Source of the DNA: Syntrophotalea acetylenivorans
GTDB taxonomy: Bacteria > Desulfobacterota > Desulfuromonadia > Desulfuromonadales > Syntrophotaleaceae
Assembly (NCBI RefSeq): GCF_001887775.1
Contig: NZ_CP015519.1
Coordinates: 1,860,001-1,924,000 of the forward strand
Length of the DNA stretch: 64,000 nucleotides
Reading direction: 5' to 3'
In this document: positions 8,801-34,659 of the stretch, in pieces
How the letters are laid out: every line of letters begins with the position of its first letter
How positions within the stretch are numbered: position 1 is the first letter of the stretch
Notes under the pieces: model-generated
Told to the model about the DNA's origin: nothing
The model's database searches: none
What the model saw: only the letters and a program-made list of their open reading frames with translations
Position numbers and translations under genes: made by a program

Positions 8801-9757
8801 TCCCGGTTGTATCAGGCCGGCAGAGGTTGTAAGGCTGCCACTTCCCCACCACCACATAATGGAACCGTTACTTTGAACGTGGAATTCGTAGTTGGTATCT
8901 TTGGAGAGAAAGCTGTACAAGTTGTCATGCCCGGCCACGCTCAGGCTGTCTGGGTGAACCCAGGCCATAACCGTCAGTTCATCGGCAATATCGAAATCGT
9001 CGTTGTCAGGCACCTGCAGAAAACCGCTGCCGGCCAAATACACACCATCGCAGACCTTGGCCCGGCCATAGGTCACCGTCCCCTGGCTGGTGCCGGTGTG
9101 GCCGTTGCCGCTGCTGTCGGTGACATCGCCTTCCAAGGCGTAGTAGGCGACCAGTTCGATCGGCCCGGACTGGTCGTCATTGTCATAACCCTCAGTAGGC
9201 TCGCCGTTGGCCCCCGGACTCCCCAGCTCCACCCAAGGGCCCTTCCCATCAGGGTCGCGGTAAATCCCCTTGGGACTGGAGTGCAGTTGACCCGTTGCGG
9301 TGGGATACTTAAAGCTCAAACAATTCGTTGATTGCGCATGATAATCGTTAACCGAAAGGTAATCGACCGCCTGGCCACCCTGATCCCGCAATACAATATC
9401 CATCCCGCCATTTTTTTGCAGATTAACGTCCGCACTGTTGACATTGACCCTAATCCAATCTGGATAGATCTCTTGATATAGGATCTCCCCGAAGGAAAGA
9501 GAGTAATCGTGGCACCCAGCATTATTATTTTTTGCGCAAAGGCGGAGCGACCAGTTCTCATAAACCGATGAATCCAGGGGCTCCAACAGCCGCACTTCCA
9601 CCCACGTTTCACTCCCCAGATCATAGATCTCGTTAATGGTCGCCTTATTGACGTAATCAGAACAATCGTCGGCCTGAGCGGGCTGTACCAGGAGACAACA
9701 CCATACCAATAAGTACGAAGTGAAAAGCCGTATCAGCACTTTGTCGAAATTATCCAT
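5870..9757 (-). CDS. mshQ: MshQ-like large surface protein with LamG domains (candidate pilus-tip adhesin)
   Basis: This is the last gene of the MSHA operon and encodes 1295 residues. A signal peptide (about 1-29, ending PAQADD) is followed by a lamin-tail-like region (about 32-165, with INEIYDLGSETWVEVRLLE), a first LamG/concanavalin-like domain (about 200-400, YYALEGDVTDSSGNGHTG), a second (about 410-625), and a C-terminal half that resembles the DUF6701 region of MshQ proteins, ending FGIFRGRPNVIYLRETYR. LamG domains commonly bind glycans or extracellular ligands. MshQ position and architecture suggest a large extracellular adhesin presented by the pilus, possibly at its tip; this role is inferred. 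It starts 24 bp downstream of mshP. No transmembrane segment is apparent after the signal peptide. Confidence 0.85.
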   Translation of the reverse strand: MDNFDKVLIRLFTSYLLVWCCLLVQPAQADDCSDYVNKATINEIYDLGSETWVEVRLLEPLDSSVYENWSLRLCAKNNNAGCHDYSLSFGEILYQEIYPDWIRVNVNSADVNLQKNGGMDIVLRDQGGQAVDYLSVNDYHAQSTNCLSFKYPTATGQLHSSPKGIYRDPDGKGPWVELGSPGANGEPTEGYDNDDQSGPIELVAYYALEGDVTDSSGNGHTGTSQGTVTYGRAKVCDGVYLAGSGFLQVPDNDDFDIADELTVMAWVHPDSLSVAGHDNLYSFLSKDTNYEFHVQSNGSIMWWWGSGSLTTSAGLIQPGVWQHVAFVYSRAAGQMRIYLNGSQVASRPFSASLPLNSDPFYIGSDKATGGGEMSGRRFYGAIDEVRVYSGALSTSQISDLMNQADPCALPAPLAEWRFDECNYTAAGALAVDTQGSHAAVAQGGVASEASGKVGRAAELDQSTESFITGNDVPMNGDWSVSTWFRMPFTNVDGSRYHVLGAMAGGGHDLLWLDSRNNYRWGGWANSSIATGSFRFGTLADGWHHLVLLGQGGTTLLYVDGSYRDQVPLQAQGNLHYLGTSFEISGGEEGFRAPLDEFIVFDEVLDQTQIDSLYQLQSQGRNLDGSLRAEIFCGTTIDHFEIIHDGSALTCAAEAVTVRACTDADCNSLYTDPVTITLSPSGWVGGDVQTLNGGSGVFRLRHTTPGSVTLAATGNPSAAQSQQCVNSGGSASCDLVFHEAGFLFEVPDHTACTTEADITIAAVRADATGEHCIGDYSFANTTRQVNFWSDYQQPASGTQALQINGSTINGASPGTPVDLVFDSQAESSLDIRYDDAGRLNLSAYFAGSGDEAGLVMTGSDSFIVAPERLRVAATTDGTTPLDNNSFSGAPFWAAGEDFFVEVAGVCSDGTVTENFSADTTLTAMAPFTPATGILGTLTGGPLSAVDYSSGLALVDDISYSEVGTVTIGAEVLNYLGSDLDVTGNSDPVGRFTPHHFLASPNTPQFGTACNSGGFTYLGQSFDYVMAPVITVTAQNLQNGVTQNYAGDWWKLSSGTLSGKSYDAATGSIDVSQVPAGDPSVTELGGGVGLLTFSAGSGLRMDRGAFMAPYDADISLEINVVDGDAIAATSNPVRFGEASAGNGISFDNGKEMRWGRLILNNAYGSELLDLAMPLRAEYYNGTAFVLNSDDNCTSLDLTQLSLNNGVTQVTANIPIAVGTGSSSASLLSPLLVGDANLRFSAPGDDGFIDVTVDLSSLDWLRFDWDGDGSHDDDPKGRATFGIFRGRPNVIYLRETYR

Positions 9758-9781
9758 GATCCCTCAATAAGGCGAACAGGC

Positions 9782-10186
9782 TCAAGGTAGGACATCAGTC
9801 ACCCGGGCGGTCAGTTGCCGAGATATATAATGGGCATCACCATAACTGCCCCATTCGGCCAACGAGCTTATGCGGAACACGGTGAAGCTCCGCCCCCCCT
9901 CGTTAAAGGCAGTCGATTCACAGGTAACAGTCACAGTGTATCCGTCTACCTGGAAACTGCCGCTGACGCAAACGCCGCTGTTCAGGTCCCGGTTAATACC
10001 CCACTCCAGGCCGCTGCGCGCTGCATGATAAGCTCGCGCCCCCTGCAGAGCCATGACCGTGGTGCGACTCTGTACCCCGGCGGTGAGCACCATGTAACCA
10101 CCAATGGCAGACAGAACCACCAGAATAAAAATCGCCGTCACCAGCGACATGCCGCCCTGATTACGCAGTGCTCGCATGCCGTTCAT
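9782..10186 (-). CDS. mshP: MSHA minor pilin / PilX-like protein MshP
   Basis: The 134-residue protein starts MNGMRALRNQGG and continues MSLVTAIFILVVLSAIGGY, a class III prepilin-like leader followed by a hydrophobic helix. Position +5 of the predicted mature protein is threonine, not the glutamate of typical pilins, as also occurs in GspK/PilX-like tip pilins. The ATG overlaps the mshO stop codon (ATGA), so translation is probably coupled; the frame stays open further upstream but that part overlaps mshO and has no pilin features. A G7 tract in the coding strand (9893-9899) is in frame. Confidence 0.82.
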   Translation of the reverse strand: MNGMRALRNQGGMSLVTAIFILVVLSAIGGYMVLTAGVQSRTTVMALQGARAYHAARSGLEWGINRDLNSGVCVSGSFQVDGYTVTVTCESTAFNEGGRSFTVFRISSLAEWGSYGDAHYISRQLTARVTDVLP

Positions 10187-10986
10187 GGCGCATTCTCCAC
10201 ATGAATTTGGTGCAGCAGAGTCACCGATTCGCCATCTTCGGTGATCTGCAACCGCAGAGTCACCAACCCGGCGCGCTGAGCGGTGCCGGGCTGATAGGTA
10301 AAGTTGCATTGGCTGACGTTGTTGGCCATGAGGGCGGGGGTGCCGCCGGGAGTGTTTGATTGGATTGCCGAAATGCCGTAGCCGGTATAGCGGGTCAGGG
10401 TGCCGGCCCCAGTGTCACAAATATAGCTGACCGGCTGGTCAACGATAAAAAACCGTTGAAAGGGGGAGGAACGGGGAAATTGAAAGGGCGGATCAAGGAT
10501 GACCGAATTGACTGTACTGCCGGCCCCGACTCCGGCACGATTGTCACCGAAATAAGCGTTACCGTTAGTGCCGGCGCCAGAGAGATTATAGACCACAATA
10601 CTCTGGCCAGGGGTGGGGGCCGTGTCGAGATCGCCCAGCGCTTCGAAATCTGTGTCGAAACCGGTAAAGTCGAGCGTGTTTCCTGGCCCATAAGCCCGGT
10701 AGCGACCGCCGTCTACGGTATGCAGCAGTTCCAAAGCGGTACCAGCACCATTGATGCGCACGCTGTTGGGCAGCGCCTGACGAACATCACGCTGCATACG
10801 ACGCAGTGCAGTCTCCGCGCTGTCGACCAGTCTGGCGCGGCGCGAAAGATCGAGAAAACCCTGAATCGGTTGGACGATGAACATGCCGCCGAGAGCCGCC
10901 AGGATGCCGGTCACCACCAGCACAACCACCAGTTCCACCAGGGTGAAACCGCAGGACGTTCTATGGTGTGAAAGCGAATACCGCAT
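10183..10986 (-). CDS. mshO: MSHA minor pilin MshO
   Basis: The 267-residue protein begins MRYSLSHHRTSCG then FTLVELVVVLVVTGIL, a type IV prepilin signal with Gly at -1, Phe at +1 and Glu at +5. The length, and the following QPIQGFLDLSRRARLVDSAE segment, match MshO/GspJ-type minor pilins. A prepilin peptidase must process it, but none is encoded in the window. It lies between mshD and mshP in the usual MSHA order and overlaps mshP by four bases. A 91-bp gap separates it from mshD upstream. Confidence 0.88.
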   Translation of the reverse strand: MRYSLSHHRTSCGFTLVELVVVLVVTGILAALGGMFIVQPIQGFLDLSRRARLVDSAETALRRMQRDVRQALPNSVRINGAGTALELLHTVDGGRYRAYGPGNTLDFTGFDTDFEALGDLDTAPTPGQSIVVYNLSGAGTNGNAYFGDNRAGVGAGSTVNSVILDPPFQFPRSSPFQRFFIVDQPVSYICDTGAGTLTRYTGYGISAIQSNTPGGTPALMANNVSQCNFTYQPGTAQRAGLVTLRLQITEDGESVTLLHQIHVENAP

Positions 10987-11077
10987 GGGGCCTCATTATG
11001 GCTGCAGGTAAACAGGTTGAAAACCGCAAACTTTTAATCGTCGACTGCCTTCAATTTATTGACCTGTGTAGCGATTC

Positions 11078-11542
11078 TTAATAGCTGGTCCGGTAACCGC
11101 TCAAGCTCATATTGATACCGGTCGAATGCCTGACGGTGACAGTGATTTTTTTGCTATTGGTGTCACCGATACCGTTCAGGGCAGTGCTGGCGACCGTCAC
11201 ATCGACCGTATAATTATGCAAGCCGTTGATAGCGGTATCGGTCTGATCCCGCGCTCCGTTGTCACTCAGGCCGTTATAGTCATCGACATCGTCAAACAAC
11301 GCCCGAGTGCTTTCGGTGTCAATACCGTCGGGATCGGCAAAAGGTTTCAGGAGAATTTCTTCCAGGTACGACTCAGCGATGGCCAGCGCCTGATGTTGCA
11401 GCATGGGATCGGCGCTGTGAGTTACGGTGTAGTTGATGGCCAGCAACACCCCGCCGAGAGCGATACTCACCACCACAATAGAGATAATCAGTTCGATCAG
11501 GGTAAACCCCCGACTTTTACGCAAACGGGAAGATATCATCAT
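11078..11542 (-). CDS. mshD: MSHA minor pilin MshD
   Basis: The 154-residue protein begins MMISSRLRKSRG followed by FTLIELIISIVVVSIALGG, a class III signal with Glu at +5. The stretch QALAIAESYLEEIL is characteristic of MshD/PilV-type minor pilins. Its ATG overlaps the stop of mshC (ATGA), which indicates coupled translation in the operon. The C-terminus TVRHSTGINMSLSGYRTSY fits the family. Confidence 0.88.
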   Translation of the reverse strand: MMISSRLRKSRGFTLIELIISIVVVSIALGGVLLAINYTVTHSADPMLQHQALAIAESYLEEILLKPFADPDGIDTESTRALFDDVDDYNGLSDNGARDQTDTAINGLHNYTVDVTVASTALNGIGDTNSKKITVTVRHSTGINMSLSGYRTSY

Positions 11543-12006
11543 GACGCATCCACATAGCCGCTTTCACCGACAATAGTGAAGGAACGACCATCGATAGTTA
11601 CCGTCACCCCGCCGGGAGTGGCGCGACCAAGAGCATCAAATATTATGCTGAGAGAACTGGGGGAAAGGGTAGTTCCAGACGGCGCCGAACCGGCAAAAGC
11701 ACCGCTGCCTGCTGGCTGAGACACAGTCCGATTAAAAGCGCTACTATGATCAACACAGGACTGCCGCTGATGCAGAGCATAACTGCCACTGGTAATACTC
11801 AACCGCACATCGCAGCCGCTGGCGACCGCCAGCTTCTGAGCATAACGGGCCGCCCCCGCCACCTCGTCATAAAAGCCACGGCTCGTAAAATCGGTGGCAT
11901 CGAAAAAACGCGGCAAAGCCACCGCCGACAGAATGCCGAGCAAAAGAATAACTGTCACCAATTCGACCAGGGTGAACCCGCGGTTATGGGAGTCAATACG
12001 ATTCAT
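11539..12006 (-). CDS. mshC: MSHA minor pilin MshC
   Basis: The 155-residue protein starts MNRIDSHNRG, then FTLVELVTVILLLGILSAVALPRFFDATDF, a canonical prepilin leader and N-terminal helix. The segment DEVAGAARYAQKLAVASGCDVRLSI is typical of MshC/FimT-like minor pilins. It lies downstream of the major pilin with a hairpin terminator between (12094-12121), so it is probably expressed at a lower level than mshA. Its stop codon overlaps the mshD start. Confidence 0.88.
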   Translation of the reverse strand: MNRIDSHNRGFTLVELVTVILLLGILSAVALPRFFDATDFTSRGFYDEVAGAARYAQKLAVASGCDVRLSITSGSYALHQRQSCVDHSSAFNRTVSQPAGSGAFAGSAPSGTTLSPSSLSIIFDALGRATPGGVTVTIDGRSFTIVGESGYVDAS

Positions 12007-12093
12007 TATTAACCGACAGCCCTGTTGAACATTGAGAAAAATCTATTCCATGCATAGAACCCGGAGATTCCGTCTCGCAAAGCAAGCTAAAAC

Positions 12094-12121
12094 AGAGGCC
12101 CTTTCCTGGGAAAGGGCCTCT
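12094..12121 (-). terminator. Hairpin after the major pilin gene
   Basis: The 13-bp arms AGAGGCCCTTTCC and GGAAAGGGCCTCT flank a two-base loop (in practice the inner pairs open). In leftward RNA it is followed by GTTTT, a weak uridine run. A leaky terminator between pilin and minor pilin genes would give excess pilin over minor pilins; this is an inference from position. Confidence 0.7.
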
Positions 12122-12140
12122 TACCAGTGCAAGGTAAACT

Positions 12141-12530
12141 TTAGGGAGCGGGGGGGATGACGATGGTAGCGATACCTACAAAAGTATCAGTCTCTAAGGA
12201 ACCGTCCTGGATAACAGTACAGTCCGACGGGGTGCCCAAAACAAGAGGCCCTGGGGTGACAGTGTATCCATCCGGAACCCCACCATCCATCAAAGAGCCA
12301 ATATCATCACAATTATCAACATCTTCGCCCTTGGCTCCGTTTGATGCAACAAAACCGGCATAATTGATAGCCATCGCCGAACCCATGGCACCAACCACGC
12401 CGGACAAAGCGGCTTCCTCGGCTTCTTCCCTTAAATCGATAAACTTCGGTACTGCAACAGCTGCAAGGATTCCCAACACCACAATAACCACCACTAACTC
12501 AATTAAAGTAAAACCATTCTGATTCTTCAT
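12141..12530 (-). CDS. mshA: Major MSHA-type pilin
   Basis: The 129-residue prepilin starts MKNQNG and continues FTLIELVVVIVVLGILAAVAVPKFIDL, with Gly -1, Phe +1 and Glu +5, a near-perfect type IVa pilin helix. Two cysteines further on (in VDNCDD and PSDC) could form the usual C-terminal disulphide loop. I start at ATG 12530 because GGAGAGAG precedes it at good spacing; the frame is open further upstream without a pilin-like sequence. In Vibrio and Shewanella two genes, mshB and mshA, occupy this place; only one is present here, so it could also be named mshB. A terminator follows. Confidence 0.88.
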   Translation of the reverse strand: MKNQNGFTLIELVVVIVVLGILAAVAVPKFIDLREEAEEAALSGVVGAMGSAMAINYAGFVASNGAKGEDVDNCDDIGSLMDGGVPDGYTVTPGPLVLGTPSDCTVIQDGSLETDTFVGIATIVIPPAP

Positions 12531-12666
12531 TTGCTCTCTCCTTTGTTCTCCGAAATCTAGGTTGATAATACGAAGGTTGTCTCGCCCTCTTCGCTTAGGC
12601 GGGAATCCATAACCTTCAAAACACACTTACTTTTCAAACAGTCCAGCAATTGACAGACTTCGTGTC

Positions 12667-12741: not shown

Positions 12742-13269
12742 CTAATTTGCCAGTTTCCATCGATACGGCTCACATGCATCGAGTCGCAATGGTGAGCCGG
12801 CCGATTGACCTGCCTCTGCTTGGCGAAGACACAAACGAATGCGCGCCGGACCGGATAATGGGCTTTCAAAGCCAACCACACTGCGCAAACGGTAAATCAG
12901 CGCCCCCTGAGCTTGATCGTAGTACCATCGGCCCGGAGCAATCTCATTGGGATCCGCATCCGACCGTTCACCGAGATAGCCATCAGGTTCCAGGCCCGTC
13001 TCCGCCTTAAGCAGCGCAACGGGGTTACCGCCCGGCCGGACCTCCGAGCGCACTGATTCTTTTTTGTTTGGCAATACGGATGCCAACAGCACCGCAGCCC
13101 GCAAATTGTCCACAGTCGCCTGCACACTGAGACGCTCGGTTTCGACCTGCAGATACCTCACTTTGCGCAGAAACACTCCTATCAGAATCAATACAACACA
13201 ACTTAATATTCCCCACTCGAACAGTCGCAAGGTCCAGCTTTTGTGGTGTAAAAGGCCTTTGGGTTTCAT
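12742..13269 (-). CDS. mshF: MshF-like pilus assembly protein
   Basis: The 175-residue protein starts MKPKGLLHHKS and has one N-terminal membrane segment (about residues 17-35, WGILSCVVLILIGVFLRK) followed by a likely helical stretch and a periplasmic C-terminal half with two cysteines. The assignment to MshF comes mostly from position between mshG and the pilin gene plus size and topology; the sequence alone would be hypothetical. ATG 13269 overlaps the mshG stop by one base (TGATG), which is why I prefer it over the longer upstream frame. Its precise role in MSHA assembly is unknown. Confidence 0.7.
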   Translation of the reverse strand: MKPKGLLHHKSWTLRLFEWGILSCVVLILIGVFLRKVRYLQVETERLSVQATVDNLRAAVLLASVLPNKKESVRSEVRPGGNPVALLKAETGLEPDGYLGERSDADPNEIAPGRWYYDQAQGALIYRLRSVVGFESPLSGPARIRLCLRQAEAGQSAGSPLRLDACEPYRWKLAN

Positions 13270-14504
13270 CAGCCCCCACGCATGACAGTCGCCATATTCC
13301 ACATGGGCAAGAAAACACCAAGCGCCAGCACCAGCACCATGGCGCCGATAAGTACGATCAGAAGCGGCTCGATGGAGCTTGCCAAACGACTGACATCATA
13401 TTCAACCTCGCGCTCATAAAACTCGGCAACCTCAACAAGCATGGTATCCACCGAACCGGTCTCTTCACCGACGGCCAGCATCTGCAACACCAGAGGGGTA
13501 AACATCTCGCTGGTGGCGGCACTGCGGGTCAGGGTATCGCCCCGTTCGACACTGTGACGCAGACGTCCGAGTCGTTTTTCGACAAAGGCGTTACCTACCG
13601 CTTGGGCGGTAAAGGCCAGAGACTGGATGAGCGGCACCCCTGCGCCGTAGCCCATGGCGAACCCCCGGCAAAAGCGGATCAGGGTAGCGCGATGCAGAAT
13701 GCTGCCGATCACCGGCAAACGTAACTTAAAACGGTCCCAAACCAACCGCCCGTTTTCGGTGCCGAGATAGGCCCGCCAGGCAAACAGGGCTGCCACCCCG
13801 GCGAGCACCATGGCCCACCACCAGCTAACGGCAAAGTTGCTCACTCCAAGGATGATTCGAGTCGGCAGCGGCAGAGCCGCACCCGCTCCCTGATAGAGCT
13901 TCTCAAAGGCGGGGATCACAAACAGGGTGATAACAGCCATGGCGATGGAGATAGCCACCACCACAAAAGTCGGATAACGCATGGCCGAACGAATCTGGTC
14001 GGCGGTCTCCTTCTCCCGGATCAGGTAGCGGGATATCTGCAGAAAGGACTCTTCGAGTTGCCCCGAGCCTTCTCCGACCTGAACCATGCTGGACAGCAGG
14101 GGCGGAAAGACTTTGGGATGGCGCCTTAAGGAGCCGGACAGATCCCGGCCGCTCTCCAGGTCCTCGGCCACTGCCTGCAGAGTCGTTGCCATAGCAGGCT
14201 TTCTTATCATCTCTGACAAACCGCGCAACGCCCTGAGCATCGGCACCCCGGATTTGATCAGGGTATACATCTGCCGGCAGAAAAGGATCAGGTCATCGAT
14301 ATCCACCCGCCCTTGCCGGGCAGATGCCAGACGCGCAACAACCTGCTCAAAGGGCGACACGCCGGCTTTGAGTTCGTTGATCGCCACCGGAGTCGCCCCG
14401 TTGGCCAACAGCTGGTCGGCCGCACCGGCGGCTGAAACAGCTTCCAGACGCCCCTCCAGCAACTGTCCGGAGTGGCTACGGGCTTTGTACGAAAACTGCG
14501 CCAT
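13269..14504 (-). CDS. mshG: MSHA inner-membrane platform protein MshG (PilC/GspF family)
   Basis: The 411-residue protein has the duplicated GspF-type domain: DDLILFCRQMYTLIKSGVPM in the first half, with a matching RFCRGFAMGYGAGVPLIQSL in the second half. Three hydrophobic segments (about 170-190, 220-240 and 375-400) anchor it in the inner membrane. Platform proteins couple ATPase motion to pilin extraction. The start overlaps the 3' end of mshE by 29 bases, consistent with the MshE-MshG partnership. Confidence 0.93.
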   Translation of the reverse strand: MAQFSYKARSHSGQLLEGRLEAVSAAGAADQLLANGATPVAINELKAGVSPFEQVVARLASARQGRVDIDDLILFCRQMYTLIKSGVPMLRALRGLSEMIRKPAMATTLQAVAEDLESGRDLSGSLRRHPKVFPPLLSSMVQVGEGSGQLEESFLQISRYLIREKETADQIRSAMRYPTFVVVAISIAMAVITLFVIPAFEKLYQGAGAALPLPTRIILGVSNFAVSWWWAMVLAGVAALFAWRAYLGTENGRLVWDRFKLRLPVIGSILHRATLIRFCRGFAMGYGAGVPLIQSLAFTAQAVGNAFVEKRLGRLRHSVERGDTLTRSAATSEMFTPLVLQMLAVGEETGSVDTMLVEVAEFYEREVEYDVSRLASSIEPLLIVLIGAMVLVLALGVFLPMWNMATVMRGG

Positions 14505-16260
14505 CGTCGTTTATTTCATCGTTGGAAAGGGGGTTTGTCAATAAGTCGAGGTCAACATTTGCATCGACCTGGCCGGCGACCCGCAATACCTCTTCCATGC
14601 TGGTGATACCGCTCCGAGCATAATCAAAGGCAGCCAGCGTCAGCGGCTTGAAGCCAGGCTGAAGTCGGGCCAGTTCGGCAAAACCGGCAGCATCTCCCCG
14701 ACGCAGGGCGTCCGCCAACAAGGTATCTATTTCGAGTAATTCAAACACGCCGATACGTCCCTGGTAGCCACTGTTGTGACATTGATGACACCCGGCCCCC
14801 CGCTTGAAGGAGAGCTGTCCGGCACCTTGGCCGACAACCTTATCCAACCAGTTACGCATCGACTCATCCAAAGGATCGTCTTCGATGCAAGTGTCACAGA
14901 TCCGCCGCACCAACCGCTGGGCAAGTATGGCTTGCAGGGCGCTGCCGACCACGAATCCCTCGGCCCCCATATCGAGCAGGCGTAAAGCGGTGCTGACCGC
15001 ATCGTTGGTGTGCAGGGTCGACAACACCAGGTGACCGGTCATGGCAGCCCGCAGGCCAATCTCGGCGGTTTCCTGATCGCGCATCTCGCCAACCATGACC
15101 ACGTCCGGATCCTGACGCAGGGCAGCGCGTAGCACGCGGGCAAAAGACAAACCGATCTTTTCGTGGGTCTGCACCTGGTTAACCCGCGGCAAGCGGTATT
15201 CCACCGGGTCTTCGACAGTAATGATCTTTTTTTCGCTGCGGTTCAGTTCGTTTAAGGCACCGTACAGGGTAGTCGTCTTACCGCTGCCGGTGGGACCGGT
15301 GACCAACAGCAAGCCGTGAGGCCTTCGCACCAGGGATCGGAAGCGATTGAGCAGCTCCTCGGGCATCCCGACCTTCTCCATGCTGAGCAACCCGCCGGAT
15401 TGATCGAGAAGACGCATAACCACCGATTCTCCGTACTGCAACGGCATGGTGGATAAACGCACATCGATGGAGCGACCCCGTACCTTGATATTAAAGCGGC
15501 CGTCCTGCGGCAGGCGTCGCTCAGAAATATCGAGGCCGCTCATCAGCTTGAGACGCGACACCAAGGCGCTGGCAATGCGTTTTTCCTTCATCACCTGCTC
15601 ATGCAGCATGCCATCTATACGCTGGCGCAGGCGCAGTACCGTTTCGTCCGGCTCGATGTGAATATCCGAAGAACCAACCTGCACCGCATCCTCGAACAGA
15701 GAACGCAGCAACCGAACCACCGGCGCATCTTCCAGCTCGGCATCGGACAACAGGTTTTCAAGGTCGAAGGCGCCGTCGGCTAACTCTTCATCAAGTTCAC
15801 CGGCCAGGTTGATGATCTCATCAGTACGGCGATAGACCGTATCGATGGTCGCCAGCAGGTCGGCCTCGCGCACCACCGCCTGCTGGATCGGCCGTTTCAG
15901 CAACTGGCAAAGCTCATCGTAGGAATAAATGTCGGTGGGGTCGGCCATGCCGACCAGCAGGCCGCTGGCATTGTCCTCGAGAACCAGGGCACGATAGCGA
16001 CGAGCGTGAATCTCTGACAGCGACTGAACCGCCTCAGGGCGATACTGGTAGTGCTTGAGATCGACGAAGGGAACCTTGAGCTGCTGGGCGAGAAATTTCA
16101 GAAAGCCGCTCTCGCTAATATAGCCCAGCTCGATCAGAGTATTACCGAGCTTGGTACCGCGTGTTTTCTGGGTGGCCAGCGCGGTCTGCAGCTGATCTTC
16201 ACTGATAATATCGTGCCCCACCAGCAGTTCGCCGATGCGGATTTTTTTGGGTATCGCCAT
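14476..16260 (-). CDS. mshE: MSHA extension ATPase MshE with N-terminal c-di-GMP-binding domain
   Basis: The 594-residue protein is a GspE/PilB-type secretion ATPase. The N-terminus reads RIGELLVGHDIISEDQLQTA and then LGNTLIELGYIS, which matches the MshEN c-di-GMP motif (RxG, spaced Leu/Ile, LGxxL). Walker A is GPTGSGKTTT at about 322-330; an Asp box (VVMVGEMRDQETAE) and His box (STLHTNDAVS) follow; a four-cysteine zinc site (CDTC and CHQC) lies near the C-terminus. The enzyme powers MSHA pilus extension. I start at ATG 16260 (MAIPKK), with AGGATG upstream, rather than an in-frame site 20 codons earlier. Control by c-di-GMP is known for Vibrio MshE and inferred here. Confidence 0.93.
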   Translation of the reverse strand: MAIPKKIRIGELLVGHDIISEDQLQTALATQKTRGTKLGNTLIELGYISESGFLKFLAQQLKVPFVDLKHYQYRPEAVQSLSEIHARRYRALVLEDNASGLLVGMADPTDIYSYDELCQLLKRPIQQAVVREADLLATIDTVYRRTDEIINLAGELDEELADGAFDLENLLSDAELEDAPVVRLLRSLFEDAVQVGSSDIHIEPDETVLRLRQRIDGMLHEQVMKEKRIASALVSRLKLMSGLDISERRLPQDGRFNIKVRGRSIDVRLSTMPLQYGESVVMRLLDQSGGLLSMEKVGMPEELLNRFRSLVRRPHGLLLVTGPTGSGKTTTLYGALNELNRSEKKIITVEDPVEYRLPRVNQVQTHEKIGLSFARVLRAALRQDPDVVMVGEMRDQETAEIGLRAAMTGHLVLSTLHTNDAVSTALRLLDMGAEGFVVGSALQAILAQRLVRRICDTCIEDDPLDESMRNWLDKVVGQGAGQLSFKRGAGCHQCHNSGYQGRIGVFELLEIDTLLADALRRGDAAGFAELARLQPGFKPLTLAAFDYARSGITSMEEVLRVAGQVDANVDLDLLTNPLSNDEINDDGAVFVQSP

Positions 16261-16371
16261 AAACACTACATCCTGTTGTGATACTTGGAGGGTGCCGGAC
16301 TTATCATGAACCGACTGCAAAATGTTCTGATCAGCCCGTTAAGCCTGACACCTTCCTGCCTGCAACCCCGG

Positions 16372-17745
16372 TCAAGGTTGCAATACGGTCAATCTTTGCC
16401 GTACATAGTTGTTTAGTGCAGGGCTCAGGCCCCGGCCAGCCAATGCTGCCCGGTAAGCAACGACAGCCTCGCCTGGAGACCCGGCATGTTCGCGAGCGAT
16501 GCCCAGGCCCATTAGCCAGAGGCCGTTATCCGGCTGGGTAGTGAGCAGCGCCTGATATTCCTGTGCTGCCGCCTGATATTGGCCAATACGCTGGTAAATA
16601 GCACCTAACAAGGCATGCAACTGCGGAGCGGCCAGCGGCGACCGCGTTGGAGCGTCCAGCAGGAGGTCACGAGCCTTTTCCAGCGCACCTTGGGTCATCA
16701 ACAATTCAGCGTAACGCAACCGCATGATCAACTGCGTCGGGTCGAGACGCAAACCTTCAGCCAGGAGATGACCAGCCTCAGCCTGGCGTTGTTCGCGGAG
16801 ATATTCGCTGACCAACGCCTGTCGGGCCTCCAGATGAGCCGGGTGCAGCTCCAGAGCCTGTAATAATGAAGCGGCACCGTCTTGATTCTGTCCTGCCGCC
16901 AGAGCCAGCTGCCCTTGCCGATAAGCCTGTTCAGCCAAATCTTTGGCGGAGGGTTTGACCGTTTTTTGAAACGGTGTCCCGGGAGGCTCTGTCGATGCGG
17001 TTTGTTGGGAAACTTCCCTGCCGGGCTTCGGATCGTCCGCTGCCTTATTTGCTACTGAACCGGCCTCCTCTGCATCGGAAGAAAGCTGATTTTCCAGTGT
17101 ACCCAGAGTCTCTGCAGGAGCTTCCGGGTACAGGTCCAGCAGCAAACGATAACCGGTTCCGAGTGCCTGCATGGTAGCGGAAAAATCCCGAATAGTTACA
17201 GACGGCATCGATATCAAGCTAACGGCCAATCCTGTGTCTTCTTGCCTGGTTTGCAGTCCTGCCAGCCAACGACCTTGAGTTACAGTCGGTAACTCGGCAA
17301 TCTGTCTTACTGCCACCAAGTCGATATGGAGGCTGCGACGATCTTTCGCCAGAGTAAAATGATAAATTGGCGGCCGATCAAAATCAGCTTCAAAGTGAAT
17401 AAACGAATCGACCTCCCGCAGCCGTATAGCATTGAGAGAAACGGCATCCGACAAGGGCCCAGTGCCGTTTTGGCTGTCCGTTGCCCCCTGCGCTACGGCA
17501 GGTTCGTTGTTTGGCGATGGTTTCGCTGAACTATTGTTTGTCAGCGGCGGCAACGCCGTCTTTTCAGAAGCCTGAGACCAGAACAAAAATCCAGCCAGAA
17601 GCGCTGCAGCCAAAACACCACCAATCAGCCAAGGCAAGCTTCGCCAGCTTGAGGGATTGACCCGCAGCACAGACACCGACTGTTCTTCGCCCCCCCCTTG
17701 TTGGCGTGCTTCCAAGTCCTTCAGCATCTGATTGATCAGACTCAT
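16372..17745 (-). CDS. mshN: MshN-like TPR protein
   Basis: The 457-residue protein begins MSLINQMLKDLEARQQ, the typical MshN/GspB-like start, and has one membrane helix (about 36-55). A proline/serine-rich linker follows, then tetratricopeptide repeats in the C-terminal 200 residues (for example AYRQGQLALAAGQNQDGAAS and EYQALLTTQPDNGLWLMGLG). MshN is predicted to sit between inner membrane and secretin. A run of eight G in the coding strand (17690-17697 on the given strand, as C8) encodes the GGG at residues 17-19. It is in frame, but a one-base slip here would stop translation almost at once; see findings. Confidence 0.85.
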   Translation of the reverse strand: MSLINQMLKDLEARQQGGGEEQSVSVLRVNPSSWRSLPWLIGGVLAAALLAGFLFWSQASEKTALPPLTNNSSAKPSPNNEPAVAQGATDSQNGTGPLSDAVSLNAIRLREVDSFIHFEADFDRPPIYHFTLAKDRRSLHIDLVAVRQIAELPTVTQGRWLAGLQTRQEDTGLAVSLISMPSVTIRDFSATMQALGTGYRLLLDLYPEAPAETLGTLENQLSSDAEEAGSVANKAADDPKPGREVSQQTASTEPPGTPFQKTVKPSAKDLAEQAYRQGQLALAAGQNQDGAASLLQALELHPAHLEARQALVSEYLREQRQAEAGHLLAEGLRLDPTQLIMRLRYAELLMTQGALEKARDLLLDAPTRSPLAAPQLHALLGAIYQRIGQYQAAAQEYQALLTTQPDNGLWLMGLGIAREHAGSPGEAVVAYRAALAGRGLSPALNNYVRQRLTVLQP

Positions 17746-17805
17746 GGTGACGGTTCCCTGTCTTTTTGCGCAGCACCTAGAAAAACATGAAAGATTCGTG
17801 CCTAC

Positions 17806-18648
17806 TTAGAAAAAGCGCCTCAATCCCAAAAAGCCGCCGGAGCACACATCTTCCGTATCCCGAGCCGCAGCCACTACCTGGGTGCGACCAACTTGTTCGG
17901 CTCCCCGCCCGTAGGTCGCCAGCAACGCCTTGTGCCCCAACACATTAATGAGACGGGGAATACCGCGACTGGACCGGTGGAGCTTTCTCAAAGCAAAGCG
18001 GCTGAACAAAGGCTTTTGACAACCTGCCGTCTTCAACCGGTGCGAGACATAGCCACAGGTACCGTCCAGGTCAAAGGGGGATAATCGATAGCTGAAAGCC
18101 AAGCGCTGCCGGAGCTGGCGCAAGCCGCGTCCAGCCAGTCGCTCATCAAGTTCCGGCTGACCGAACAGCACGATGTGCAGCAATTTGCGTTTGCTGGTCT
18201 CTACGTTACTCAACAAGCGAACCGCCTCCAGTCCGGAATCGGACATGGACTGGGCTTCATCAATACAGAGCACCACACGCCGACCGCTGTCAGCCACACG
18301 CAAGAGATGTTCCACGATACGGTTGAGTAGACTATGCAGGTCGGCCCATTGCAACTCGGCTAACCCCAGCTCGGTTGCTACCGCGCGATAGAGATCCAAG
18401 GGCTCAAGCAGAGGGTTGGGAAGATAGGCCGTTACGTAGAGATCATCCAGAGCGTCGAGCAGAGTACGGCAGAGCAGAGTCTTGCCGGTGCCGACCTCAC
18501 CGGTGATCTTGATAAAGCCTTCACCGCCCTGAAGCGCCACCAACAGCACATTGAGGGCCTCCTGATGCTCGGAATAACGGAAAAAGTAGCCGGGATCAGG
18601 AGTCAGGGAAAAGGGCAGTTCGGAAAGTCCGAAATGCTCAAGGTACAT
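17806..18648 (-). CDS. mshM: MshM, ExeA-family AAA ATPase
   Basis: The 280-residue protein starts MYLEHFGLSELPFSLTPDP, characteristic of ExeA/MshM proteins, with Walker A GEVGTGKTLL at about residues 50-58 and Walker B VVLCIDEAQ. Such ATPases help assemble the secretin or organise peptidoglycan for it, as GspA/ExeA does. It lacks the C-terminal peptidoglycan-binding domain of ExeA, as is usual for MshM. I use ATG 18648, as GGAGGG lies just upstream; a TTG directly before is in frame. Confidence 0.9.
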   Translation of the reverse strand: MYLEHFGLSELPFSLTPDPGYFFRYSEHQEALNVLLVALQGGEGFIKITGEVGTGKTLLCRTLLDALDDLYVTAYLPNPLLEPLDLYRAVATELGLAELQWADLHSLLNRIVEHLLRVADSGRRVVLCIDEAQSMSDSGLEAVRLLSNVETSKRKLLHIVLFGQPELDERLAGRGLRQLRQRLAFSYRLSPFDLDGTCGYVSHRLKTAGCQKPLFSRFALRKLHRSSRGIPRLINVLGHKALLATYGRGAEQVGRTQVVAAARDTEDVCSGGFLGLRRFF

Positions 18649-18679
18649 CAACCCTCCAAGGGAAATTCATCGATTTGAC

Positions 18680-20413
18680 TTACTGTGCCGGCCGGGCAAA
18701 AGGGCCACCGCGCCACTCATCATTAAGCTGGCTGCCTAGCCGTTCAAAACTATCCGTGGACTCCTGCAAGGCCTGTCTCCAGGTATCATCGCCGACTACC
18801 ATAGGGCGCAACAGAATAACCAGTTCACTTTTGCGACTGGTCACTTGGCTGTGACGGAACAAGGAGCCCACACCGGGCAATTGGCCAAGCAACGGGATCC
18901 CGGCGGTTTTTTTGCTCGACAGATTCTTCATCAAGCCGCCAATGACAACCACTTGACCGCTTTCGGCGCTGACGATGCTGTCCGACTCCCGCACGGTACT
19001 GAATGCCAGAGGCAGGGTCTGTGCCTGACCGGCGACGGTAATGGTCTTCTGTTGGTCGGTCACCTGGCTGATGGTGGGGTGAACATGCAGAGTCACCCGA
19101 CCGCCGGCATCGATCTGCGGCGTCACATCGAGAGCGATCCCGGAAAAGAAGGGGGTCAGGGTGATATCGGGACTGGTGGTGGTGGCGGTGCCGGTCACCG
19201 TATCGCTGGAAATGTCGGTAACAAAAAATTCGTCGGAACCGACTTTGATCACCGCTTTTTGATTGTTGACGGTTGCAATCCGGGGGCTGGAAAGGACCTG
19301 CACGTCGCCCTGAGTTTCGAGCAGTTCGATAAAAGCGGCAAAATCGTTGAAAGTCAAAGCGGCGCTGAAAACTCCGCCGAACGCGGAGGCGGTGCTCCCT
19401 TCAATCATCTCCGTCGGATTGAGGGGGCTGAGGATACCGCTATTCCCTGCAATATCGGAAACGCCGGAATCGCCGAAGATGGTGCCGCCACCGGTCTGGC
19501 TCAAGACTACGTCGCCGCCGGTTAATAGCGACCAGTTAATGCCACTTTGGAAGCCATCGTTGAGCTCGACCTCGAGAATTTTGGCCTCAAGAGTGACCTG
19601 TCGCTGCAGATTGCCCTGAATAGCCGAGAGATAATCGGCGACCTGACGCAACTCGGGGGGCAGCGCCCGTACCACCACCACACTGGCCTGAGGCTGAACG
19701 ATAACCCGCCGGCCGTCCTCCTGACCAACCATGGTCCGCAGCGCCGTAGTCAGTTCCTGCCAGAAATCGTTAATAGACTCGGTACCGACCTCGCTGCCGG
19801 AGACAACGGAACGCTCTCTGTTGCCGCTATTGCTCGAACCTGAATCATCGTCATCATCGCTATCGTATTCAGAAACCTGTCCCGAACTGACCCGGGTCTG
19901 GGAAGAACCACGTCGTACCAGGTTCAGATAGTTGACATGGAACAGCTGAGTTTGTATTCCGCCCCGCATCACTTGAAAACCCGTTGCGGTCTGGCGGTAA
20001 TGATAGCCGTAGACGTCGCGCAACACCTCCATAACCTCCGGAATGGTGACATTCTTCAGGGCGAGGCTAACTTCACCCTCTAACCCCGGCTGCACGACCA
20101 TGTTATAGGGTGTTCCAGTGACCAGGCCCATGAAAAAATCACCGGCCGGGATCTTCTCTGCCGCAACATCAAAACGGGGTTCTTGAACCACCGCAGGTGC
20201 CAACTCAGCCTCGGCCCCAAGTTTCGGCAACAGAGCCTCGGCAACCTCGGCGGGGAGTTCTGGAGGCACGGAGGCACCTTGTGGCGGCACCAGGTGTTGT
20301 TCAAAGTCGCTGATAGGCTCTTCTGCCCTGGGTCGCTGCGCGCAGGCCGTAAGAAATATCAGGCCCAGCACTAGCGCGCTTCGCCAAAAGGGGACATAAA
20401 GATGCTGCATCAT
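18680..20413 (-). CDS. mshL: MSHA outer-membrane secretin MshL
   Basis: The 577-residue protein begins with a lipoprotein signal (LGLIFLTAC, lipidated Cys about 24). An STN-like domain (EVMEVLRDVYGYHY) and N-domains precede the secretin domain in the C-terminal 300 residues (VTLEAKILEVELNDGFQSGI, then VQVLSSPRIATVNNQKAVIK). It should form the outer-membrane ring through which the pilus emerges. A short acidic and serine-rich stretch (SEYDSDDDDDSGSS, about residue 170-185) interrupts the periplasmic part and is probably a flexible loop. MshK follows on the promoter-proximal side. Confidence 0.93.
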   Translation of the reverse strand: MMQHLYVPFWRSALVLGLIFLTACAQRPRAEEPISDFEQHLVPPQGASVPPELPAEVAEALLPKLGAEAELAPAVVQEPRFDVAAEKIPAGDFFMGLVTGTPYNMVVQPGLEGEVSLALKNVTIPEVMEVLRDVYGYHYRQTATGFQVMRGGIQTQLFHVNYLNLVRRGSSQTRVSSGQVSEYDSDDDDDSGSSNSGNRERSVVSGSEVGTESINDFWQELTTALRTMVGQEDGRRVIVQPQASVVVVRALPPELRQVADYLSAIQGNLQRQVTLEAKILEVELNDGFQSGINWSLLTGGDVVLSQTGGGTIFGDSGVSDIAGNSGILSPLNPTEMIEGSTASAFGGVFSAALTFNDFAAFIELLETQGDVQVLSSPRIATVNNQKAVIKVGSDEFFVTDISSDTVTGTATTTSPDITLTPFFSGIALDVTPQIDAGGRVTLHVHPTISQVTDQQKTITVAGQAQTLPLAFSTVRESDSIVSAESGQVVVIGGLMKNLSSKKTAGIPLLGQLPGVGSLFRHSQVTSRKSELVILLRPMVVGDDTWRQALQESTDSFERLGSQLNDEWRGGPFARPAQ

Positions 20414-20455: not shown

Positions 20456-20818
20456 TCAATCTTTTTCAGCAACGGCAGTCACTTTAGGTCGTTTGGGCAG
20501 AAGCTTCAGCACAAAGTCTCTGCCGCCTCGTCGCAACCGAACCTGGCCCGGCTCAATAGCCACCACTTTTGCACCGCTGATTCGATCTCCCGCCGACAAA
20601 GGCCGACCGTTGATTACGGCCACCCGTCGCTGCGGAGCAATCAGGATGGACCCCAGTTGCAAGCCCTTTGACGGAGCGTCTCCTGAAGCAGCCGGTTCAA
20701 CAAACCGCTGCGGGGGTCGGGTCGGGTCCGGCAAAGAGGCCGTGTTGCCCTTGTCGGCAGGCATCAGCATCGCCAGCATCCCGGCGCAAACAAAGACTGC
20801 CACCTGTCTCCTAAACAC
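20456..20818 (-). CDS. mshK: MSHA biogenesis protein MshK (PilP/GspC-like)
   Basis: The 120-residue protein starts at GTG 20818, eight bases inside the end of mshJ, with AGGAGG nine to ten bases upstream. It has a hydrophobic signal segment (VAVFVCAGMLAMLM) and then LPDPTRPPQ, a motif shared by MshK and PilP-like pilotin/secretin-linking proteins. A C-terminal beta-rich domain (LGSILIAPQRRVAVINGRPL) resembles the GspC HR domain. It probably links the inner-membrane complex with the MshL secretin. Confidence 0.82.
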   Translation of the reverse strand: MFRRQVAVFVCAGMLAMLMPADKGNTASLPDPTRPPQRFVEPAASGDAPSKGLQLGSILIAPQRRVAVINGRPLSAGDRISGAKVVAIEPGQVRLRRGGRDFVLKLLPKRPKVTAVAEKD

Positions 20819-21488
20819 CGATCCAGTCCTCCTTCAGACTCAGAGTATAGACCGTCACGGTTATCTTCGTCTGCGGGTATTCCTCAACGGATAGCGCCAG
20901 GTCCTGCCAGTAAACCTTGCGTGGCAATTGTTCCAACGACCGCAGATAAGCCAAGGCATCTAAATAACTTCCGGTCAGTTCAATGCGCACCCGATGACGA
21001 TACAGATTACGTTGCCGCACCTTTTCGACTTGCGAATCAACAGCTGGCTGCTTAAGCAGCGGCTCACTTGGAAGATTCTCCAACCGGGTCAGGTTGAGTT
21101 GGCGACGACGCGTAAGCATCTCCTCCAGTACTGTTACCATTTGTTGCGGACTGATAAGCTCTCCGGTCAATAATTCCAGGCGCTCATCAAGCCGGTCGAT
21201 CTCTTCCTCCAACATCACCTTTTGTTGGCGATTGTTTGCATCGGGATCTTGCGCGGCACCCGCAACCATTGCTGCCTCTTGCTGATCAAGAGCGGCAACC
21301 GTTGCAACGGCTGAACTAATTTGGGTTTCCAATGCCTGCCGGTGCATAACCATCGGCTCTATCAGCAACACATACCAGAGCAATATCAGCACAGCCAGAA
21401 ATGAAACAGCGAGCAACAACCGCTCCCGAGGGGCCCGGGCATCCAGCCAGCGGCAAAGATCGCTCACAGAACTCCGCAAAGAAGTCAT
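20811..21488 (-). CDS. mshJ: MSHA biogenesis protein MshJ (PilO/GspM-like)
   Basis: The 225-residue protein has one N-terminal membrane helix (about 24-44, LLLAVSFLAVLILLWYVLL), a coiled-coil stretch (about 55-115) and a C-terminal ferredoxin-like domain (about 135-220), the PilO/GspM layout. It should pair with the PilN-like protein upstream to form the inner-membrane alignment complex. Its start overlaps the preceding stop codon (ATGA). Confidence 0.85.
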   Translation of the reverse strand: MTSLRSSVSDLCRWLDARAPRERLLLAVSFLAVLILLWYVLLIEPMVMHRQALETQISSAVATVAALDQQEAAMVAGAAQDPDANNRQQKVMLEEEIDRLDERLELLTGELISPQQMVTVLEEMLTRRRQLNLTRLENLPSEPLLKQPAVDSQVEKVRQRNLYRHRVRIELTGSYLDALAYLRSLEQLPRKVYWQDLALSVEEYPQTKITVTVYTLSLKEDWIGV

Positions 21489-22090
21489 TGGGCTTCCTCC
21501 AGAGTACTACGCAAAATAAAATCGACGGCCTCGTTCCGTTCTTCTGAACGGCTCATAACCAGGCTGGCAAATTCAAGCCCGGCAAAAGAAGCCTGCCGGC
21601 TCAGGCGCTGCACGTAGCGAGGCACTAATTCCGCGCGAAGGGCACTTCCTTCAAGCACCAGGGAATGACCTCCTTCGGCCACTGCGATATCTCGCAACCA
21701 GACCCCCTCCAGGTCTTCCCGGGCCAGACCTTGCAAGTGTTCAGAAAAACCGGAAAACTGATCAGGGGAGTGATCCGCCAGCAGGGTCAGCAGAGGCAAT
21801 CGAGCCGCCCTTTCAGCCTTCAGCTGAGCCACCTGGCGGGCCAATGTTTCACTATATTTTCGTGTCGAATGGGTTTGTTGCAGCTCCACAATCCGCTCCT
21901 GAGCGGCCTGCTCCTGAACTTTAATGTCAGCTAGATGGCCCTCGGTACGCCATAGTTGCCAACGAACAACGCCATAACCAAGCAACAGGAGTCCAATACC
22001 AACACCGACAGCCAGCAGCAGGCGGCATGCTGCAAGGGGCGACGTCCTGACAATAACTGTCGACTGATAAAGGTTGATCTGCTGCGTCAT
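21485..22090 (-). CDS. mshI2: MSHA biogenesis protein MshI2 (PilN-like)
   Basis: The 201-residue protein starts MTQQINLYQ, the signature PilN beginning (INLY-type motif that binds PilM), followed by a membrane helix (about 22-44), a coiled coil, and a PilN-type C-terminal domain. I start at ATG 22090, which overlaps the stop of mshI1 by four bases (ATGA) and gives the conserved INLY start; the frame is open 16 codons further upstream. With the PilM-like MshI1 and PilO-like MshJ it forms the inner-membrane platform. Confidence 0.85.
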   Translation of the reverse strand: MTQQINLYQSTVIVRTSPLAACRLLLAVGVGIGLLLLGYGVVRWQLWRTEGHLADIKVQEQAAQERIVELQQTHSTRKYSETLARQVAQLKAERAARLPLLTLLADHSPDQFSGFSEHLQGLAREDLEGVWLRDIAVAEGGHSLVLEGSALRAELVPRYVQRLSRQASFAGLEFASLVMSRSEERNEAVDFILRSTLEEAQ

Positions 22091-23018
22091 AAACTCACCG
22101 TTTCCATACGCAAGGCGGCACCGATGGCCAACAGGCACTGCTCCGGCTGGTCGGGCAGCATCTGGCAGTCAAGCAATTGTGCAACGTCAAGTGGCTGCAC
22201 CGCCATGCCGAGAGCTTCTCCAAGACTAGACATAAGATCGGTAGAGGAAAACCCCAAAGGAGCCAGTGTCAGGGAGCTGATGGCTGACTGGGAAAAGTTA
22301 CTGTCAAAAAAGTCCAGAGAACGTTGAATCTCCAAGGCGACCGAATCTACCATATCCTGCCAATAGGGAGCTTCTGGGCGCAAAGCCTCGACACCGATAT
22401 TGATAGTACGGGCCAGACACAGTTTTCCTGCACGGCAAATAATTATCTGTCCGGAGTCCACGCCAAAATACAACAGCGCCACGCCCCTGTCGGCGTTGGG
22501 TAACAAATTAGCTATGTTGCGAAGAACCAATTCAGGGATATCGATAGCCTGCAGTTTCAGTTTAGTTTCTTTAAACAGTGCAACTTTCTGTCGAAGCAGA
22601 TTCTGCCGAGCCACCACCACATAGGCCGTACGAGCTCCTTCGCGCTGGGTATCGCGCGGCACCTGAAAAACATCGACCACAGCCTCTTCAATGGGAAAGT
22701 CGATAAGGTCGCGGATCTGCCATCGAACGGCGTCCCGCAATTCGTTATCCGGAACTTCGGGGGGGCAACCTGTAACATCTGATAATCATCGCCCCCCAGA
22801 GAAAAGACTGCGCGAGCGGCTGACAAACCAACTTTTTTTAGCCAATCCTGCAACAGGGAAGCCTGCTCGCCAATCCCACCGGACAAATACTCGCATTCTT
22901 TGAGATGTGGAGCGTCATCCCCCTGCGACACAATATGGGCAACGGCAAGACCATCCGGCCCCTGACACACACCGACAATACCCCGTGAAAAAGATAGTTT
23001 CTCAGAAAGGAGCTTCAT
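22087..23018 (-). pseudogene. mshI1: MshI1 (PilM-like) with a one-base frameshift at a C7 tract
   Basis: Two frames together make one PilM-like actin-fold protein of about 310 residues. The first frame (from 23018, MKLLSEKLSFSRGIVGVCQG) runs to QMLQVAPP; the natural continuation EVPDNELRDAVRWQIRDL lies one frame over and continues to 22087 (IGAALRMETVSL). The break is at a homopolymer, seven G on the given strand at 22759-22765 (C7 in the coding strand). Eight or five bases would restore the frame. The second part shows no decay and keeps coding-like sequence to its stop, so the break is recent, reversible or a sequencing error. PilM homologues are essential for pilus assembly, so a true frameshift should stop MSHA production. 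Confidence 0.85.
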
Positions 23019-24151: not shown

Positions 24152-24742
24152 CTAACCGGCACCTTTTTTTAATTCGATCAAGATCTGCTTGGCGACGGCT
24201 TTGAGGGTTTCAAAAACCCCCTCTCCAGTCAAAGCACAGGCCTTGAACTCAGGAACCATGTTCGGGTTGAGAAAACCCTGCAGTTCGTCAATAGGCGACA
24301 AGTTAGGCAGATCAACTTTGTTGTACTGAACCACAAAGGGCAGGTTCTCCAACTGGTAACCATGCTCCTCAAGGTTGTCTTTAAGGTTTTCCATACTTTC
24401 TATATTGGCATCAAGACGCTCTTCCTGACAGTCAGCAACAAACACCACGCCATCGACCCCTTTGAGGATCAACTTGCGCGAAGCATCGTAGAAAACCTGC
24501 CCGGGAACAGTATAGAGGTGAAAACGAGTTTTAAAGCCGCGAATATCACCCAGAGCCAGCGGAAGAAAATCGAAAAACAGCGTCCGTTCCGTCTCGGTGG
24601 CCAACGAAATCATCTTCCCTCGAGCGTCCGGTGCTGTGCGATTGTAGATAGTCTGCAGATTGGTGGTCTTGCCACACAGGCCCGGCCCGTAATAGACAAT
24701 TTTACAATTGATTTCGCGGGAGGCATAGTTGATGAAGGACAT
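24152..24742 (-). CDS. mglA: MglA-type Ras-like polarity GTPase
   Basis: The 196-residue protein [18 protein letters not shown] continues [12 protein letters not shown] (P-loop), and has the long MglA-type insert before [13 protein letters not shown] and the base-recognition motif QYNKVDLP. MglA in its GTP state marks a cell pole and recruits motility machinery, including type IV pili, in Myxococcus and relatives. Its partner MglB lies 11 bp upstream in the same operon, and the msh pilus operon is 1.7 kb away. Length matches the family. Confidence 0.95.
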
Positions 24743-24753
24743 GAGGCTACCCG

Positions 24754-25251
24754 TCAGCTAAAAAGATTATCGATATCGTCGTCGCTTATTTCGGCGAAAG
24801 GATTTTGCGGACCACCTAGTGAACCGACCGACTCCGACTTGCGGGTGAGCTCACCAAAAACGCTCCCTAGAGCATCGCTGGCCTTTTTGACCCGCAGCCG
24901 AACCAGACCAAGAGAACTGCGATGATCGAAGATAACCACCAGAATGACTCGACCGGCCACAATGGAGATATGAATATTATCCTTCTCTCCTTCGTGAAAA
25001 AGAATAGAAAATTCTTTTTCCCCGATAAGCTTGGCCAGACCGCCAGTGGCAGCGATATTGCCAGCTGTCAATGAGGCGAGGCTGGTCGTATCGAGGTGCT
25101 CGGTCTCCCCAGTCGCCGCCATCAACTGCCCATTGCGATCAACTAAAAAAACCGCCTTGGCATTAGATTCGCGCAACAATTTGTCAGCGAGGTTGACGAT
25201 CTGCTGAAATTCCTCGTCGTACATAACCAGAGAGGCTTGAGATCCGAACAT
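24754..25251 (-). CDS. mglB: MglB, Roadblock/LC7 GTPase-activating protein for MglA
   Basis: The 165-residue protein has a Roadblock/LC7 domain (about residues 8-130, with [17 protein letters not shown] and [19 protein letters not shown]). A C-terminal tail follows (DNLFS end). In MglA systems MglB dimers stimulate GTP hydrolysis and set polarity. AGGAG sits nine bases before the ATG. It is upstream of mglA with an 11-bp gap, an arrangement conserved widely. Confidence 0.92.
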
Positions 25252-32047: not shown

Positions 32048-32096
32048 TGGGCTCAAAGACCTCCACATCCGAGGGATTTAGCAGCTACAAAAAAGA

Positions 32097-34465: not shown

Positions 34466-34659
34466 CACAATCTCCTGCCAGAACTCCGAAGGGCAGACAA
34501 GCCCCCCATACACACAAACAGGCTAGCAGTATTTATCAAAACAATCGCTTACTAGTAATAACCGACCCACCCATCCAAAGCAACAGAATGCTTGGAACCC
34601 ATCCACTCTCAAACAAGCAACCTCTTTTGCGCTTGTAAAATTAAATGCAAAGAAACTAA

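Follow-up and report, generated by a model that had tools for sequence, protein, structure and literature searches.

Is mshI1 of Syntrophotalea acetylenivorans SFB93, the PilM-like gene of an MSHA-type pilus operon, a phase-variable gene or a misread one? The window, by which we mean the whole stretch of 64,000 nucleotides analysed here, carries a complete operon of this type on the minus strand, which by Pfam matches begins with the PilM-like gene at 23018, ends with an mshQ-like gene at 5870, and holds PilM/N/O-like genes, a secretin, an MshE-type ATPase, a T2SSF-type platform protein, and pilin genes together (Table 1). The names mshI1 to mshQ were assigned from operon order plus Pfam. Apart from mshI1, the operon genes gave single-frame matches in congeners, the pilin-like genes being matched over part of their length. 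Beside the pilus operon, at 24152-25251, an Arf/Ras-type small GTPase gene and an adjoining 165-aa gene show 94-98% identity in congeners, and we take these two to be an MglA/MglB-like pair.

The sequence-only reading had described mshI1 as split one base out of frame at seven C, and comparison with congeners bore this out. The frame break is present in the assembly at a C7 tract on the coding strand (seven G on the plus strand), where mshI1 lacks one base relative to congeners. Starting at the ATG at 23018, the 5' frame passes through the tract and stops at 22557 (153 aa). The 3' frame is open from 22785 down to its end at 22087, and measures 217 aa if its first listed start is used. In three congeners the homologue is a single open frame of 336-350 aa, and these proteins matched the 5' and 3' frames of mshI1 with identities of 80/86%, 60/86%, and 80/84%, respectively. 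For two of the three queries, of 310 aa each, the matches (1-88 and 86-309) joined precisely at the tract; for the third the 5' match continued beyond it (1-112). Neither Pfam nor NCBIfam gave a match for the 5' fragment, and no second lesion was seen within mshI1. The length of the tract is ordinary, as nine G/C runs of at least 7 occur in the window.

Table 1. Features of the MSHA operon and of split genes in SFB93. Plain coordinates refer to the window; those with an L prefix refer to sample stretches of the genome.
Feature	Location	Strand	Remark
C7 tract of mshI1	22759..22765	-	break point, one base below congener frame
mshI1 5' fragment	22557..23018	-	153-aa ORF; ~88 aa ahead of the tract match congeners
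mshI1 3' fragment, PilM-like	22087..22740	-	listed from first TTG; Pfam PilM_2 4.8e-9, NCBIfam pilM 1.2e-11; congener identity 83-85%
7-bp G/C inverted repeat flanking the tract	22760-22766 and 22791-22797	.	24-nt loop
mshI2, PilN-like, intact	21485..22138	-	Pfam PilN; single-frame congener match
mshJ and mshK-like, intact	20456..21488	-	T2SSM, T2SSB; congener match
mshL secretin, intact	18680..20413	-	Pfam Secretin 3.9e-40; congener match
mshM and mshN (TPR), intact	16372..18651	-	Pfam, congener match
mshE (T2SSE + MshEN) and mshG (T2SSF), intact	13269..16320	-	Pfam, congener match
pilin-like genes (N_methyl) and large mshQ-like gene (DUF6701, laminin-G), intact	5870..12626	-	Pfam, congener match
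PAS/HisKA/HATPase sensor kinase, split at G7 (coding strand)	33875-33881	-	fragments 33851-34513 and 32619-33980; 11 kb from mshI1; one base short
mfd	L044:18536-18542		one-base-short split
FAD-dependent protein	L128:18436-18442		one-base-short split
nudC	L145:15102-15107		one-base-short split
metH part	L100:10823-10828		one-base-short split
histidine kinase (second)	L050:2263-2268		one-base-short split
DUF3426 protein	L051:14915-14920		one-base-short split
VimE-like protein	L130:17913-17918		one-base-short split, weakly confirmed
alternate F1 ATPase beta	L042:1550-1554		one-base-short split
ABC exporter	L130:11224-11228		one-base-short split
EI24/CysZ protein	L113:16362-16366		one-base-short split
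AcrB-type pump	L110:1040-1044		one-base-short split
split mutS	L134:13634-16253 (own genome about 733.6-736.3 kb)	minus	

The conservation of the tract was examined in relatives. A search of 40 genomes, including that of the window, gave a match in 35, and the best 14 relatives among these 35 (L002-L015) were used for the tract comparison. All 14 carry the gene as one open frame of 318-356 aa and none has the C7 tract, the longest C run being 6 bases in a different family; at the tract codons the three congeners read GCTCCGCCT or GCTCCGCCC. The run, absent from all 14 relatives, therefore originated within this lineage only, through synonymous changes in the Ala-Pro-Pro codons. The dN/dS values against the three congeners were 0.19-0.22 for the 5' part of mshI1 and 0.07-0.11 for the 3' part, so the gene is under purifying selection and has retained its function up to the very recent past, if not to the present. 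The sequence-only reading had named a C-free sequence in relatives, joined with fixed decay elsewhere in the gene, as one finding that would speak against it; the congener codons bring the former in part, and the latter was not found.

These comparisons bear on the proposal that the run, changing between C7 and C8 by reversible slippage, is a selected contingency switch turning MSHA pili on and off. The repeat does lie inside the ORF, where it sets the frame exactly at the break point of a pilus gene, and a precedent exists in another MSHA operon, since a C8 tract in mshQ of Vibrio cholerae is listed as mutagenic in PMC5854121. The tract of mshI1, however, is neither kept in relatives nor longer than codon usage and composition predict; on the contrary, coding sequence holds fewer G/C runs of at least 7 than synonymous-codon shuffling would give (34 vs 57.9 +/- 6.0, in a 744-kb part of the genome sample described below), and the same type of break is found in mfd, nudC, and other non-surface genes. 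The accompanying premise that MshI1 is needed for pilus assembly is also insecure, for in PMC4624765 an mshI deletion in V. cholerae did not reduce surface MshA pili but increased them, although the MshI of that species is listed there in the PilN superfamily and is not PilM-like. Among the open-licence PMC papers listed by full-text searches on MSHA phase variation, none pointed in its title or the beginning of its abstract to a C-tract switch in a PilM-like MSHA gene. Taken together, the absence of the run in 14 relatives, the depletion of long G/C runs, and the purifying selection make a selected switch quite improbable, and of the two possibilities raised by the sequence-only reading, phase variation or sequence error, it is the second that gained support.

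Could the tract instead be read through by programmed -1 ribosomal frameshifting or by transcriptional slippage, so that the apparently broken form is functional? The missing phase is indeed that of a -1 slip on a C heptamer. Nevertheless, neither the tract nor a split gene occurs in any of the 14 relatives, and identical splits at other runs point to one common, non-functional cause. The G/C hairpin that could form at 22760..22797 is likewise not significant (DNA fold -7.6 kcal/mol, z -1.29). We therefore regard read-through as hardly credible. The G6 arm of the inverted repeat results from two substitutions relative to congeners that change SLAVDD to SLGGDD; this AV to GG swap sits in an otherwise conserved stretch, and a templated (quasi-palindrome) change might look so.

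Split genes were also surveyed beyond the window, which together with 74 further stretches of 20 kb amounts to 1.544 Mb or 48% of the genome with 10,000 bases read as N (GC 52.8% sampled vs 53.4% published, PMC5331500), by recording where coding potential switched frame at a homopolymer. Counted per run-strand, hits at G/C runs were 15/854 for runs of at least 6 and 363/70,214 for those of 3-4, an odds ratio of 3.4 with p 7e-5; at A/T runs they were 23/3680 versus 464/77,352 (odds ratio 1.04), with no enrichment. A split was taken as confirmed when a single gene could be traced across two frames, through Pfam or NCBIfam matches of its halves or through intact genes in congeners. The 15 G/C hits at runs of at least 6 represented 13 places, nine of which proved to be split genes, eight well confirmed and a VimE-like deacetylase weakly; the eight are mshI1, the PAS sensor kinase, mfd, an FAD-dependent protein, the C-terminal part of metH, a second histidine kinase, a zinc-ribbon/DUF3426 protein, and nudC. 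Among the four unconfirmed places, three (L038, L042:8741, and L051 minus) were dismissed on visual inspection, and L138 matched no family. From 32 hits at G/C runs of 5, five pairs were scanned and four confirmed (an alternate F1 ATPase beta, an ABC exporter, an EI24/CysZ protein, and an AcrB-type pump); the fifth, MlaD-like L035, was not confirmed as split, and L157 was left out.

The 13 verified splits, at G/C runs of 5-7, thus lie in unrelated genes and are every one a base short, a direction that has p 2.4e-4 against equal odds, a rough figure as the cases at runs of 5 had been picked for looking split. None of the 23 hits at A/T runs of at least 6 was confirmed, where the A/T-7 and the stronger A/T-6 hits were viewed and one pair was scanned (L161, no family). 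Congener contigs are syntenic with 38 kb of the window, and in this part two genes and no others are split, mshI1 and the sensor kinase, each at a 7-base G/C run; the latter is open over 618-646 aa in the three congeners. Since the sample covers 48% of the genome, a rough extrapolation from the 13 verified splits suggests about 27 of them genome-wide.

The way in which the genome was obtained offers an explanation. The chromosome of Pelobacter sp. SFB93, now S. acetylenivorans, comprises 3,218,469 bp with 74 annotated pseudogenes, and it was sequenced with PacBio RSII on one SMRT cell and assembled with HGAP and Quiver at 87x, short reads being unmentioned (PMC5331500); PacBio CLR reads are the only source of the assembly. 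For Streptomyces albus SM254, assembled with HGAP and Quiver at 262x with a QV over 50, PMC4832174 states that short reads fixed 205 residual indels, "nearly all" of them in G or C homopolymers, in a passage that gives no direction, loss or gain, for them. Deletions in long-read assemblies are tied to homopolymers in general, according to PMC12007338, the examples of which are mostly nanopore. Two S. acetylenica genomes from the same group and by the same method have 132 and 44 pseudogenes, though they belong to one species (PMC5331499). Losses in one direction at G/C runs, in unrelated genes of a PacBio-only assembly, form the pattern of residual consensus undercalls.

From the split with its place and direction, the unbroken gene in relatives, the way the genome was sequenced, and the repeated one-base losses at G/C runs of unrelated genes, we infer that the base missing from mshI1 is a reading error and not a real deletion, and we put the probability that the C7 is a consensus undercall at about 0.65. 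The living strain would then most likely carry one extra C and an intact mshI1, whose PilM-like product would act in the cytoplasm as the partner of MshI2 and MshJ, which are PilN/PilO-like. Several observations stand against this reading. None of the 31 G/C runs of at least 8 had a frame-switch hit. A sodium-transporter-like gene (L136 near 9229, minus strand), beside a CG repeat and a G5 run, is split in the opposite phase (+1 or -2), and mutS is broken by a gained base outside any run. Moreover, none of the broken genes listed is proven essential: an intact atpD is present and the split ATPase beta is an alternate form, so the idea that it is the sole beta subunit was ruled out and dropped as proof, and because congeners lack the 5' half of metH, essentiality is not claimed for that gene.

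The mutS break deserves weighing, because, if it is real, SFB93 lacks mismatch repair and the loss in the C run could be genuine slippage. The two open frames of mutS measure 273 and 648 aa, versus 873 aa for the protein of a congener and 891 and 908 aa in relatives. On this account the base would be truly missing in the sequenced culture through a slippage mutation, possibly aided by the broken mutS or by relaxed laboratory selection on pili and involving no selected switch, and the strain would be without full-length MshI1 until a reverse slip. A gained base away from a homopolymer is less typical of polished PacBio error, and the freedom of mshI1 from other decay would fit a recent loss. 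In delta-mutS Vibrio lines, too, most single-base indels lie in homopolymers; yet insertions and deletions were nearly equal there, with a slight deletion excess in V. fischeri and none in V. cholerae (both as given in PMC5854121), whereas all 13 verified G/C-run splits of SFB93 are losses. Nor was any A/T-run hit confirmed, despite A/T runs of at least 6 outnumbering G/C ones about 4:1 (1840 vs 427); the survey, with uncalibrated sensitivity for A/T runs, thus did not show the mix of gained and lost bases at A/T and G/C runs alike that is expected of a mutator. A real deletion is possible and the less probable explanation. The farther-reaching idea that mutS is genuinely broken and SFB93 a slippage mutator, in which C7/C8 switching in mshI1 and changes at other G/C runs are real and frequent and pilus output varies among cells of the type culture, seems improbable.

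Frame breaks were also sought in two further scans. A homopolymer-independent scan for frame switches by coding potential alone gave 132 events in the sample of the strain's own genome, with 13 losses versus 6 gains near G/C runs of at least 5, and 51 losses versus 62 gains elsewhere, that is, no loss excess; it was rejected as too noisy, since the events listed were mostly antisense shadows and gene junctions. A homology survey with 337 matched queries and 333 kb aligned found at least 14 break places in the same sample, a raw count inflated because several comparators had been fetched for an already known split (L116-L118, L122-L124, L171-L174, L179, L181-L183, L185-L187, and L192-L194). With comparators not so chosen, breaks were found in mfd, the FAD protein, mshI1, and the sensor kinase, each one base short at a 7-base G/C run, and in the L136 transporter in the other phase; for mshI1 and the sensor kinase, the congener contigs used had been chosen for the pilus operon. 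Other candidates were discarded: the break at the N terminus of dnaX (window 32026-32077) reflects conserved sequence upstream of dnaX and no split, that at a T8 run in L039 falls in a spacer between two intact genes read in antisense, and those at L136 6276, L161 15191, and L128 17892 were of low identity or ambiguous.

Two other genomes served as imperfect controls, each over 400 kb. In the comparison genome G006, which we take to be the Sanger-sequenced S. carbinolica, two G/C hits were checked and neither held up, and PacBio-sequenced S. acetylenica had some splits at A/T runs. In S. acetylenica, a genome from the same group and method as SFB93, two split genes were noted: a second-copy gene of the DNA polymerase III alpha type, broken close to a G8 run (L083:834-866), and a Na/Pi cotransporter-PhoU gene, broken close to A/T runs (L084:7592-7642). 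That the split polymerase is the essential DnaE was ruled out, as it is a second copy, and it was dropped as proof.

The case of mshI1 probably illustrates how a PacBio-only reference can mimic a contingency locus. Part of the 74 annotated pseudogenes of SFB93, including mfd and nudC, may be false. If mutS were truly broken, the type culture of this acetylene fermenter would be a mutator, with consequences for all physiological work on it.

Among known systems, the poly-G tract of pilC in Neisseria type IV pili gates a pilus-biogenesis protein by homopolymer length, and it is longer than C7 and varies within populations. Both pilC and mshI1 have a homopolymer in a pilus-biogenesis gene, the tract of mshI1 being known from one assembly. 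The C8 of V. cholerae mshQ is similar in being a C homopolymer in an MSHA operon gene at which a length change shifts the frame; mshQ, however, is adhesin-like, unlike the PilM-like mshI1, and its change was seen in mutation accumulation lines, mainly delta-mutS (PMC5854121), whereas the C7 here comes from a single assembly. With S. albus SM254, whose errors were proven by short reads, unlike the supposed ones of SFB93, which is known from its assembly alone, the likeness lies in the data themselves: both genomes rest on PacBio, HGAP, and Quiver, and the residual errors of SM254 were almost all in G or C homopolymers (PMC4832174).
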